Source: Gallionellales bacterium GWA2_55_18 (GTDB lineage: Bacteria > Pseudomonadota > Gammaproteobacteria > Burkholderiales > Gallionellaceae). From it: a stretch of DNA of 39,659 nucleotides. Location of the stretch: assembly GCA_001801055.1 (NCBI GenBank), contig MGWP01000024.1, positions 1-39,659 on the forward strand. The letters run 5' to 3'. Made by a program: the position numbers and the translations under genes. The notes below the pieces were generated by a model that saw nothing but the letters and a program-made list of their open reading frames with translations, made no database searches and was not told the origin of the DNA. Positions 10,403 through 36,933 of the stretch are shown here, piece by piece (position 1 is the stretch's first letter; every line of letters starts with the position of its first letter).

Positions 10403-10427
10403 GTAGGGTGCATGGAATGCAACCTAC
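10403..10427. repeat. Short hairpin of the GTAGGGTGCAT family
   Basis: GTAGGGTGCAT-gga-ATGCAACCTAC, one stem mismatch. Confidence 0.7.
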
Positions 10428-10445
10428 CAACCAACGACTACAAAA

Positions 10446-12371
10446 ATGGCTTTACTACAAATCTCCGAACCCGGCATGAGCACTGCCCCGCACCAGCACC
10501 GGCTGGCGGTGGGTATCGACCTCGGCACGACCAACTCGCTGGTGGCCACGGTGCGCAACGGCATCAGCGTGGTGCTCAACGACGAAAACGGGCGCGCCAT
10601 GCTGCCTTCGGTAGTGCGCTATCTGGCCGATGGCGGCGTTGCGGTGGGCGAGGCGGCGCAGACCATGCAGAGCGAGGATGCCGCCAACACCATCGTTTCG
10701 GTGAAACGCTTCATGGGGCGCGGCCTCAAGGATGTCGGCGAGATCAGCCGCCTGCCCTATCGCTTTGCCGATGCTCCTTCTTCAGGGCAGGCCGCTTCGC
10801 CCTTCGCTACCTCAGGAGGCTCAGGACAGGGTTCCGGCATGTTGCAACTGCGCACCGTGGCGGGAATCAAAAGCCCGGTCGAGGTATCCGCGGAAATTCT
10901 CAAGGTGTTGCGCAGCCGGGCCGAGGCCGCATTGGGCGGCGAGCTGGTCGGTGCGGTCATCACCGTGCCGGCCTATTTCGACGATGCGCAACGGCAGGCC
11001 ACCAAGGACGCGGCGCGCCTGGCCGGACTGAACGTATTGCGCCTGCTCAACGAGCCGACCGCCGCGGCGATCGCCTACGGGCTGGATAATGCCGCCGAGG
11101 GTGTGTATGCGGTGTACGATCTGGGCGGCGGCACCTTCGATATTTCCATCCTGCGCCTGTCGCGCGGCGTGTTCGAGGTACTGGCGGCCAACGGCGATTC
11201 CGCATTGGGCGGCGACGATTTCGACCACCGCATCCATTGCTGGCTGCTGGAAAAAAATCGTCTCTCCGCGCTCGGCCCACGGGATACACGTCTGCTGCTG
11301 ACCCATGCGCGCGCCGCCAAGGAACAGTTGACCGAACATGCCGAGGCGCGCATCACAGCGGTGCTGTCGACGGGCGAAATGATTGACAGCGTGCTGACGC
11401 GCAGCGAGTTCCATGCGATGTCGCAGAATCTGGTGCAGCGCACCTTGCAGCCGTTGCGCCGCGCATTGCGGGACGCGAAGTTGGACATCGCGGATATCAA
11501 GGGTGTGGTGATGGTCGGCGGCGCGACGCGCATGCCGCAGGTGCAGCACGCCGTAGGAGAATTTTTTGGCCAAACGCCGTTGACCAACCTCGATCCCGAC
11601 AAGGTCGTGGCGTTGGGTGCGGCGATCCAGGCCAATTTGCTGGCGGGTAATCGTAGCGGTGATGATTGGCTGTTGCTCGATGTGATTCCGCTTAGCCTCG
11701 GCATCGAAACCATGGGCGGCCTCGTCGAAAAAATAATTCCGCGCAACAGCACCATTCCCACCGCGCGCGCGCAGGAATTCACCACCTTTAAGGATGGGCA
11801 GACCGCAATGAGCATCCATGTGGCGCAGGGCGAGCGCGAGCTGGTGAGCGATTGCCGTTCGCTGGCGAAATTCGAGTTGCGCGGCATTCCCGCGATGGTG
11901 GCGGGCGCGGCGCGCATTCGTGTGACTTTCCAGGTGGATGCCGATGGATTGTTAAACGTGTCGGCGCGCGAGATGGGCAGCGGTATCGAGGCGGCGATTG
12001 CCGTCAAGCCTTCCTACGGGCTGTCGGACGCCGAGATCACGCGCATGCTGCAGGAATCCACACAGCACGCACAGGGCGACATGCAGGCGCGCGCGTTGCG
12101 CGAGCAGCAAACCGAAGCCGGGCAATTGCTCGAAGCGGTGCAACATGCGCTGGAGCAGGATGGCGGTTTGCTCGATCAGGCAGGGCGCACGCAAATAGAA
12201 ATCCGGATGGGTGCGTTGCGCGATACTTTGCACCTTGCCGATCACCTGTCCATCAAGCGCGCCGTTATCGCATTGAACGACGCTACCGTTGGTTTCGCGC
12301 AAGCGCGTATGGATAAAAGCGTGGCGCGTGCCCTGGCGGGCAGGAATATTTCCGAACTGGATGAAAAGTAA
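10446..12371 (+). CDS. hscA: Hsp70-family Fe-S chaperone HscA
   Basis: [58 protein letters not shown]; 641 aa with an extra low-complexity insert. Confidence 0.97.
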
Positions 12372-12733: not shown

Positions 12734-12784
12734 GTAGGGTGCATTCCATGCACCAGTGCTAATGGTGCATGGAATGCACCCTAC
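12734..12784. repeat. Perfect 22-bp stem hairpin, GTAGGGTGCATTCCATGCACCA family
   Basis: GTAGGGTGCATTCCATGCACCA-gtgctaa-TGGTGCATGGAATGCACCCTAC. Confidence 0.95.
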
Positions 12785-16858: not shown

Positions 16859-16939
16859 ATGTAGGACTCTGCCCGACCGCTTCGCCCTTCGATACCTCAG
16901 GAGGTTCAGGGCAGGCATGGTGGGCAGAGTCCACCTTAC
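16859..16939. repeat. Nested palindromic repeat
   Basis: Outer arms GGACTCTGCCC (16864-16874) / GGGCAGAGTCC (16922-16932) enclose a 39-nt repeat (16877-16915) also found inside hscA. Confidence 0.85.
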
Positions 16940-17020
16940 GGTTACTCAAATTTTTGGGGTGCAGGGAATTACAGTATAATTTTTTCGGCTAATATCGTTT
17001 AAATATCAAAGGAGCTCATC

Positions 17021-29555: not shown

Positions 29556-29605
29556 AAGGGTGTATTCCATGCACCAATGGCAACGGTGCCTGGAATGCAA
29601 CCTAC
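29556..29605. repeat. Degenerate copy of the GTAGGGTGCATTCC hairpin family
   Basis: aagggtgtattccatgcaccaatggcaacggtgcctggaatgcaacctacg. Confidence 0.75.
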
Positions 29606-29706
29606 GATTACTGTTGAAAGACAAATGGAATCACGCACTGCTTCCCATGACCAACAAGTGAATCGACTATAATTCACACCGCGTATAACTTCCCATATCA
29701 ATCAAA

Positions 29707-30669: not shown

Positions 30670-30709
30670 CTACAGGCCGCATGTCACACAATGGCAGCTT
30701 GATAGCGAG

Positions 30710-30755
30710 TGTAGGGTGCATTCCATGCACCATGGTGCATGGAATGCACCCTACA
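30710..30755. repeat. 46-nt perfect palindrome, GTAGGGTGCATTCC family
   Basis: TGTAGGGTGCATTCCATGCACCA|TGGTGCATGGAATGCACCCTACA. Confidence 0.97.
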
Positions 30756-30780
30756 AGTGCTACCGATTTTTCTTTGAAAA

Positions 30781-35052: not shown

Positions 35053-35792
35053 TGCTTGCCTATTTCCGTATTGGCATGGATTTCCGTGTTGCGGCCTTGC
35101 TCCAGAATTTCAAACGCAATCTCCATATCGGCATGGGGGATCAATCCTTGAGCGTTTTCCGGCCATTCGATGAAAAAAATATTTTGCCCGTCGAACTCAT
35201 CGCGGAAGCCGGCCGCTTCCCATTCATCCTCGTCGCGCAGGCGATACAGGTCGAAGTGACGCAAGTCTAATCCGGCGGCATGGTATGGCTCAACCAGTGT
35301 GTAGGTTGGACTTTTCACGCGCCCGCCATAGCCCAGCGCATTCAGCATGCCGCGTACTAGCGTGGTCTTGCCCGCTCCCAGATCGCCGCGCAGATAGATC
35401 ACCATGCCGGGTTTTAGCCGTGCGGCGAGGCGTTGCGCCAGGGCGATGGTCGCGTTTTCATCGGCGAGGTGTAATGAGAGATTCGCGCAGCGGTCGTTAG
35501 TTTCCTCTCCCGAGGATTCAAGGTTGCCTTTCTCGTTTGTCCTTTCTCCCGCTTGCGGGATAACCAGCGACTTGGCTGCGGTCGTTTGCAGCCTAGTCGA
35601 ATGGCTAGTTGTCTCATCCAGAGAGTTAGAGAGAGGGGTTCTTTGCGGGGGATAACCAGCGACTTGCCCGCTTGCGGGCTTAGTCGAATGGCTAGTAGTC
35701 CCATCAGGGTTAGGGAGGGGGGCGGGCTTGGCGAGTACCATCATCAAAGTGGCATCTTTACTCTGCCCGCAGGGTGATTCGGCTATCATCAC
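35034..35792 (-). CDS. tsaE: tRNA threonylcarbamoyladenosine biosynthesis ATPase TsaE with long repeat-derived N-terminal extension
   Basis: LAARLKPGMVIYLRGDLGAGKTTLVRGMLNALGYGGRVKSPTYTLVEPY; first ~95 aa are unrelated low-complexity; start uncertain. Confidence 0.88.
   Translation of the reverse strand: MMIAESPCGQSKDATLMMVLAKPAPLPNPDGTTSHSTKPASGQVAGYPPQRTPLSNSLDETTSHSTRLQTTAAKSLVIPQAGERTNEKGNLESSGEETNDRCANLSLHLADENATIALAQRLAARLKPGMVIYLRGDLGAGKTTLVRGMLNALGYGGRVKSPTYTLVEPYHAAGLDLRHFDLYRLRDEDEWEAAGFRDEFDGQNIFFIEWPENAQGLIPHADMEIAFEILEQGRNTEIHANTEIGKQCLKQL
35558..35705. repeat. Two direct copies of a ~56-61-nt hairpin repeat
   Basis: ggataaccagcgacttg...agtcgaatggctagt.gtc.catc at 35558-35618 and 35650-35705. 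Confidence 0.92.
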
Positions 35793-36882: not shown

Positions 36883-36933
36883 CTAGCATCTGGTTAATTA
36901 AAAATTCCGTTCGCCCTGAGCTTGTCGAAGGGT

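Follow-up and report, generated by a model that had tools for sequence, protein, structure and literature searches.

How does a conserved chaperone come to hold, in frame, a stretch of DNA that is also found between genes? The question is raised by the hscA gene of a Gallionella-like MAG (G000, a 1.69 Mb draft), which lies within the window, that is, the whole stretch of 39,659 nucleotides that was analysed. Most of the well-documented examples of protein sequence supplied by repeats are from the Rickettsiales. An earlier note on this DNA claimed that a disseminating short element had donated protein sequence to HscA, and we weigh that claim here against the rest of the genome, against relatives (most of the genomes compared are MAGs) and against other proteins.

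Results

The hscA gene (10446-12371, forward strand) encodes an isc-operon Hsp70-type chaperone with an in-frame insert (Pfam HSP70, E 2e-179), whose 641-residue translation agrees with the one given earlier. Pfam assignments around it describe an isc operon with IscS, IscU, IscA, HscB, HscA and ferredoxin, and the closest named HscA is that of a Gallionella sp. MAG (89-92% identity). The match reported between positions 10792-10830 of hscA and noncoding DNA at 16877-16915 was recovered at precisely these coordinates, with 36 of 39 bases identical and both copies on the forward strand. The genome-wide search with the 39-mer, which the earlier note had proposed, was run on the 1.686 Mb of G000 and returned 36/39 at 16877 and, as the next best hit, 32/39 at C58:18907 (contig 58), against at most 27/39 for the reversed 39-mer and at most 26/39 for ten shuffled ones; the match is therefore not due to chance. 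A dinucleotide-shuffle control gave two matches in the real sequence versus none in 100 shuffles. The description of the matched element as a palindrome holds for the intergenic copy only, which is nested as the central unit of a mosaic (16861-16940, forward strand) between GTAGG-type REP-like arms (GTAGGACTCTGCCC ... GGGCAGAGTCCACCTTAC) and folds strongly (z -5.3), whereas the hscA copy alone folds no better than its shuffles (z +1.3). Additionally, GTAG and CGTC tags are both absent from the hscA copy, which is not a dimer.

The extra in-frame segment itself is real, although its extent is not the 20 residues first proposed: relative to the ancestral loop (DAP-GM), the net insertion covers 10779-10835 on the forward strand (57 nt, or 19 residues, 112-130), giving a loop of 22 residues versus 3. 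Two parts can be recognised in this region, both on the forward strand. The 15 nt directly before the matched unit (10776-10790, CCTTCTTCAGGGCAG) are the decayed remnant of an earlier, B-type repeat copy (compare CCTTCGACAGGCTCAGGACAG in the relatives L012 and L015), and they are followed by a V-type unit at 10792-10830 (39 nt, or 13 codons, 10791-10829 in codon register). The two are joined head to tail, with CAGG running directly into CCGCTTCG, and TCAGGRCAGG is present as a direct repeat flanking the V unit.

Three related repeat units, which we call A, B and V, are found in G000. The A unit (CTTCGACARGCTCAGGGCGAACGG) often occurs as inverted dimers starting CCGTTCG, and one A-type copy (CTTCGACAAGCTCAGGGCGAACGG), of the same family as the hscA repeat, lies in the window between two open reading frames (36907-36930, reverse strand). 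The B unit (CCRCTTCGACARGCTCAGGACAGG) is 24 bp, or 8 codons, long and is often the middle part of GTAGG-REP pairs, while the V unit (CCGCTTCGCCCTTCGNTACCTCAGGAGGNTCAGGRCAGG, 39 bp, 13 codons) is a variant of a dispersed palindromic family with the core CTTCGACARGCTCAG. This core has 32 exact copies in G000. Within the genus it is found in 36 of the 41 genomes, and a sample of 299 genomes from across the phylum has it in 33, with up to 148 copies; its reversed pattern, counted as a control, has none in the genus. The V core is rarer (nine exact copies, in 4 of the 41 genus genomes). By inspection, the B unit is free of stops in five of six frames and the V copy of hscA in four of six. Two V copies, one in the G000 hscA gene (10802-10819) and one in a CusB-type gene of G017 (L359, near 1500-1530), read CTTCGCTACC, the other seven having CTTCGATACC instead, and the CTTCGCTACC copies are possibly a coding subtype.

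In the alignment of HscA to relatives, 28 HscAs come from outside the genus, and in 26 of them the loop from PYRF to GM(L/V)QL is a bare 3 residues long, so the segment is not the older, order-wide feature that, by the earlier note, would have refuted its claim; moreover, one of the two exceptions (L069, from another lineage) holds a B-type copy at the same hscA codons, and its nearest rows (L070, L067 and L068) have loops without it. Inside the genus, the same loop ranges from 3 to 22 residues (25 HscAs), and only one other large internal length change is seen in these proteins (8 residues, in one species). A clean B copy, encoding PSTGSGQ, occupies the loop of L012 and L015, two B copies in tandem occupy that of L013, and the loops of L009, L011 and L065, near G000, are almost bare. 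A recognisable core is absent today from 26 of 30 HscA loops, and many of these are therefore bare, decayed or of other origin. The insert of L019 holds another small palindrome (CTGCCGACCGGCAGGCA), of which two further one-mismatch copies occur in the same genome; this hints weakly at a repeat-derived insert there as well.

It could be argued that the segment is an old, HscA-specific low-complexity linker that resembles the repeat by chance, with intergenic copies that either have nothing to do with it or stem from hscA, and a Gly/Ser-rich composition is indeed common in linkers. However, controls reach at most 27/39 where the real DNA match is 36/39, the loop outside the genus is bare, and the same DNA is present in other genes and species, all of which makes this origin extremely improbable. 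The extra segment of HscA very probably consists of two head-to-tail units of the dispersed palindromic family, B and then V.

The most informative comparison is with G016, the sister species of G000 (100% bootstrap). The two share the shortened first B copy in hscA, whose remnant reads CCTTCT and then NCAGGG in both, and the following 39 nt are present in G000 and absent from G016. A chimera created during assembly of the MAG might be suspected in a draft genome that is 71.5% complete, but it is scarcely credible for a segment lying in a single open frame, whose first part recurs in the sister species and whose kin are found at the same codons in relatives. The comparison of the sisters therefore leads to a building in two steps, or else to a loss of the second unit in G016 via the flanking TCAGGRCAGG. 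The difference between the sister species is plain, and from it we infer its direction, a gain in G000; precise loss in G016 through these direct repeats fits the data equally well.

In the first step, which the comparison of the relatives shows, a 24-bp B unit (CCRCTTCGACARGCTCAGGACAGG) entered hscA in this lineage, in the codons of a turn on the protein surface, where, read in a stop-free frame, it yields the Gly/Ser-rich PSTGSGQ; this unit is clean in L012 and L015 and has decayed or been deleted elsewhere. In a second step, the 39-bp V unit would have been added where the decayed first unit ends in CAGG, making the loop 13 residues longer. Since B amounts to 8 codons and V to 13, head-to-tail growth keeps the frame, and, with units whose lengths are divisible by three and which are open in most frames, gain, tandem growth and loss can all spare the gene.

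The effect of the insert was approached with an AlphaFold model of HscA, built on a 53-sequence alignment. Residues 111-130 have pLDDT values below 50 and lie between the strands 106-108 and 134-137, and the insert is thus predicted to form a disordered loop in the ATPase domain; in the alignment to DnaK, its place is at about residues 90-100, towards the N-terminus of that domain. Judging from Hsp70s in general, we take this position to be distant from the HscB and IscU contacts. As this loop is predicted to be disordered and sits in an ATPase-domain turn, we think it most likely that HscA tolerates the insert rather than making use of it. The alternative is an adaptive insert, kept by selection, which tunes HscA (its ATPase rate or its contacts with partners); long loops do persist in much of the genus, and the role of HscA in iron-sulphur cluster assembly is plausibly important in an iron oxidiser. 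Nevertheless, loop sequence and length differ between close relatives, with L009, L011 and L065 nearly bare, unrelated proteins show the same phenomenon and the loop is predicted to be disordered, so that we regard adaptation as unlikely and tolerance as the better reading.

HscA is not the only protein affected. In-frame copies are found in G000 in purL, recG, rlmM (an inverted pair), lpxK, hsdM, a type III mod gene, a gene for an MshM-like ATPase and others (names beyond Pfam hits were assigned by inspection), and recurrence of repeats at the same site, with turnover of length, was tracked across the genus for RecG, LpxK and PurL. A CusB-type protein of another species (G017) contains an in-frame V stretch identical to that of hscA at 30 of 30 nt, and the same 11-residue peptide is encoded in both. 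Together with the kin copies at the same hscA codons, this stretch supports the earlier claim of a disseminating element as donor of protein sequence. The aat gene of G013 (L404, 1305-1405) holds an in-frame array of four 24-bp B units, encoding GHFDKLRT four times, in which CAGG meets CCACTTCG at the B-B junction, nearly identical to the junction in hscA; the latter, CAGG followed by CCGCTTCG, also joins V and B in the intergenic tandems of L356 and L358. Beside aat, the arginyltransferase-like gene in L404 has another copy (FDHVQDRQ).

The stretch of RecG between KG and EPHQLMMSATPI varies across the genus from almost nothing to more than 50 residues (recG loci L323-L352). At this place, L326 and others hold a full CCGTTCG...CGAACGG dimer, and L324 holds a full GTAGGTCG...CGACCTAC dimer; the site is a hot spot of insertion for at least two unrelated repeat families. 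In three relatives (L295-L297), LpxK holds a separate, CTCTCCC-type repeat in frame, encoding PLPNPLPEGEG and kin.

The repeats are dispersed, reside in frame and recur at the same sites, and their dispersal probably proceeds by transposition or recombination. In the search for a mobilising gene, the CTTCGAC core was found next to none of 30 Y1_Tnp loci checked in the genus, and a comparison by eye of the junctions at hscA, mod and recG revealed no consistent target-site duplication. A Y1-type (RAYT-like) transposase gene does lie on contig 55 of G000 (L292, about 1465-1972), with GTAGGGCGGGC REPs on both sides; these flanking REPs are GTAGG only, without CTTCGAC units, and the transposase may move GTAGG dimers, and with them the B or V units that form their centre. 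On contig 39, two A-type copies 1.7 kb apart lie on either side of one open reading frame. On contig 12, an open reading frame flanked by A-type copies 1.2 kb apart reads as hemC.

The 39-nt unit could also have reached hscA with no transposase at all, if the decayed hscA copy and other copies sharing TCAGGRCAGG took part in ectopic recombination, slippage or template switching; this would concern the mechanism and not where the sequence came from. The old unit ends in CAGG, and it is precisely there that the new one begins, TCAGGRCAGG stands as a direct repeat on both sides of the new unit, 24-bp tandem arrays exist and the CTTCGAC-type repeats have no adjoining transposase. On the other hand, first copies in bare loops (such as L069) and in many genes require some mechanism of dispersal, and at the recG site, GTAG-type dimers are present as complete units that resemble inserted elements; overall, we place this route at a little under an even chance. 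For the 39-nt step, recombination or slippage adding the unit head to tail onto an existing copy has about the same likelihood as transposition.

Discussion

REPIN/BIME elements consist of two inverted REPs with a spacer and are mobilised by RAYT (TnpA-REP), and in REPIN/RAYT systems the RAYT gene is flanked by the same repeat. Similarly, the GTAGG dimers of this genus flank the Y1-type gene of G000 (L292) and sit in recG of L324; in contrast, the CTTCGAC family has no transposase gene alongside it (30 loci), and the hscA copy is not a dimer; A-type copies elsewhere, including that in recG of L326, are dimeric.

That palindromic repeats can lie both between genes and inside them is established for Rickettsia palindromic elements (RPEs), their Wolbachia counterparts and intragenic REPs. 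RPEs and their counterparts in Wolbachia, studied by Ogata, Claverie and co-workers, occur between genes and in frame in conserved proteins, where they are tolerated (PMC2229807), and RPEs of different groups have been found at the same orthologue loci, hot spots having been considered (PMC3767692). The present family resembles them in being both intergenic and in frame in conserved proteins and in the presence of different repeat groups at one locus, as at the RecG site. However, RPEs were described from Rickettsiales and measure about 100-150 bp, with terminal inverted repeats; the units here have another sequence, are 24 and 39 bp long (about 70 bp in the dimers), belong to a Gallionella-like betaproteobacterial lineage and include an hscA copy that does not fold above shuffles. 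Another comparison is with the intragenic REPs tagged GTAG/CGTC, short palindromes within ORFs of free-living bacteria, often dimers coding for 20-30 residues, for which insertion at about the same site of recB is reported in two Xanthomonas species (PMC3733652, BMC Genomics 2013). Our family likewise consists of short palindromes that occur within the ORFs of free-living bacteria and recurrently at the same site, but the hscA copy bears neither tag and A-type copies start CCGTTCG. The main text of PMC3733652 mentions neither Gallionella nor the core CTTCGACARGCTCAG, and our search of a limited literature library found no match for this core, for an in-frame coding REPIN or for palindromic repeats of Gallionella. 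As in protein-coding palindromic repeats generally, the same repeat occurs noncoding and in frame in conserved genes, and the orthologues without it are intact, missing just that segment (HscA, LpxK, RecG and PurL).

What this case adds is a single lineage in which fresh, doubled, decayed and lost copies are seen at the same codons, in several conserved proteins. Some 30 species provide a near time series, from bare loops through insertions and tandem doublings to decay or loss, and permissive loops (in HscA, RecG, LpxK and PurL) have been colonised repeatedly by short repeats. With several stages present at the same codons, it therefore becomes possible to measure the rate at which repeats add protein sequence, how long such sequence persists and any role that it gains, in ordinary enzymes with known assays. 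A more speculative reading, possible but rather improbable, is that the family is adapted to life inside genes, with units in multiples of three, stop-free in most frames, that lengthen head to tail without loss of frame, pass from one gene to another and go on remodelling fixed loops of essential proteins; if so, short repeats would drive part of loop evolution across the whole lineage.

Other repeats in the window

The window contains further repeats. REPs of the GTAGGGTGCATTCCATGCACC type, a different REP family from the hscA repeat, lie at 10407-10427, 12734-12784, 29557-29607 and 30706-30756, three of them as inverted dimers; one immediately precedes hscA and another immediately follows the ferredoxin gene. 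Repeats of the CCCTCTCCC type are found at 2756-2780 and 2961-2985. Finally, GCCTAGTCGAATGGCTAGTTGTCTCATC forms a pair of direct repeats (35591-35618 and 35678-35705), 89% alike and 87 nt apart.
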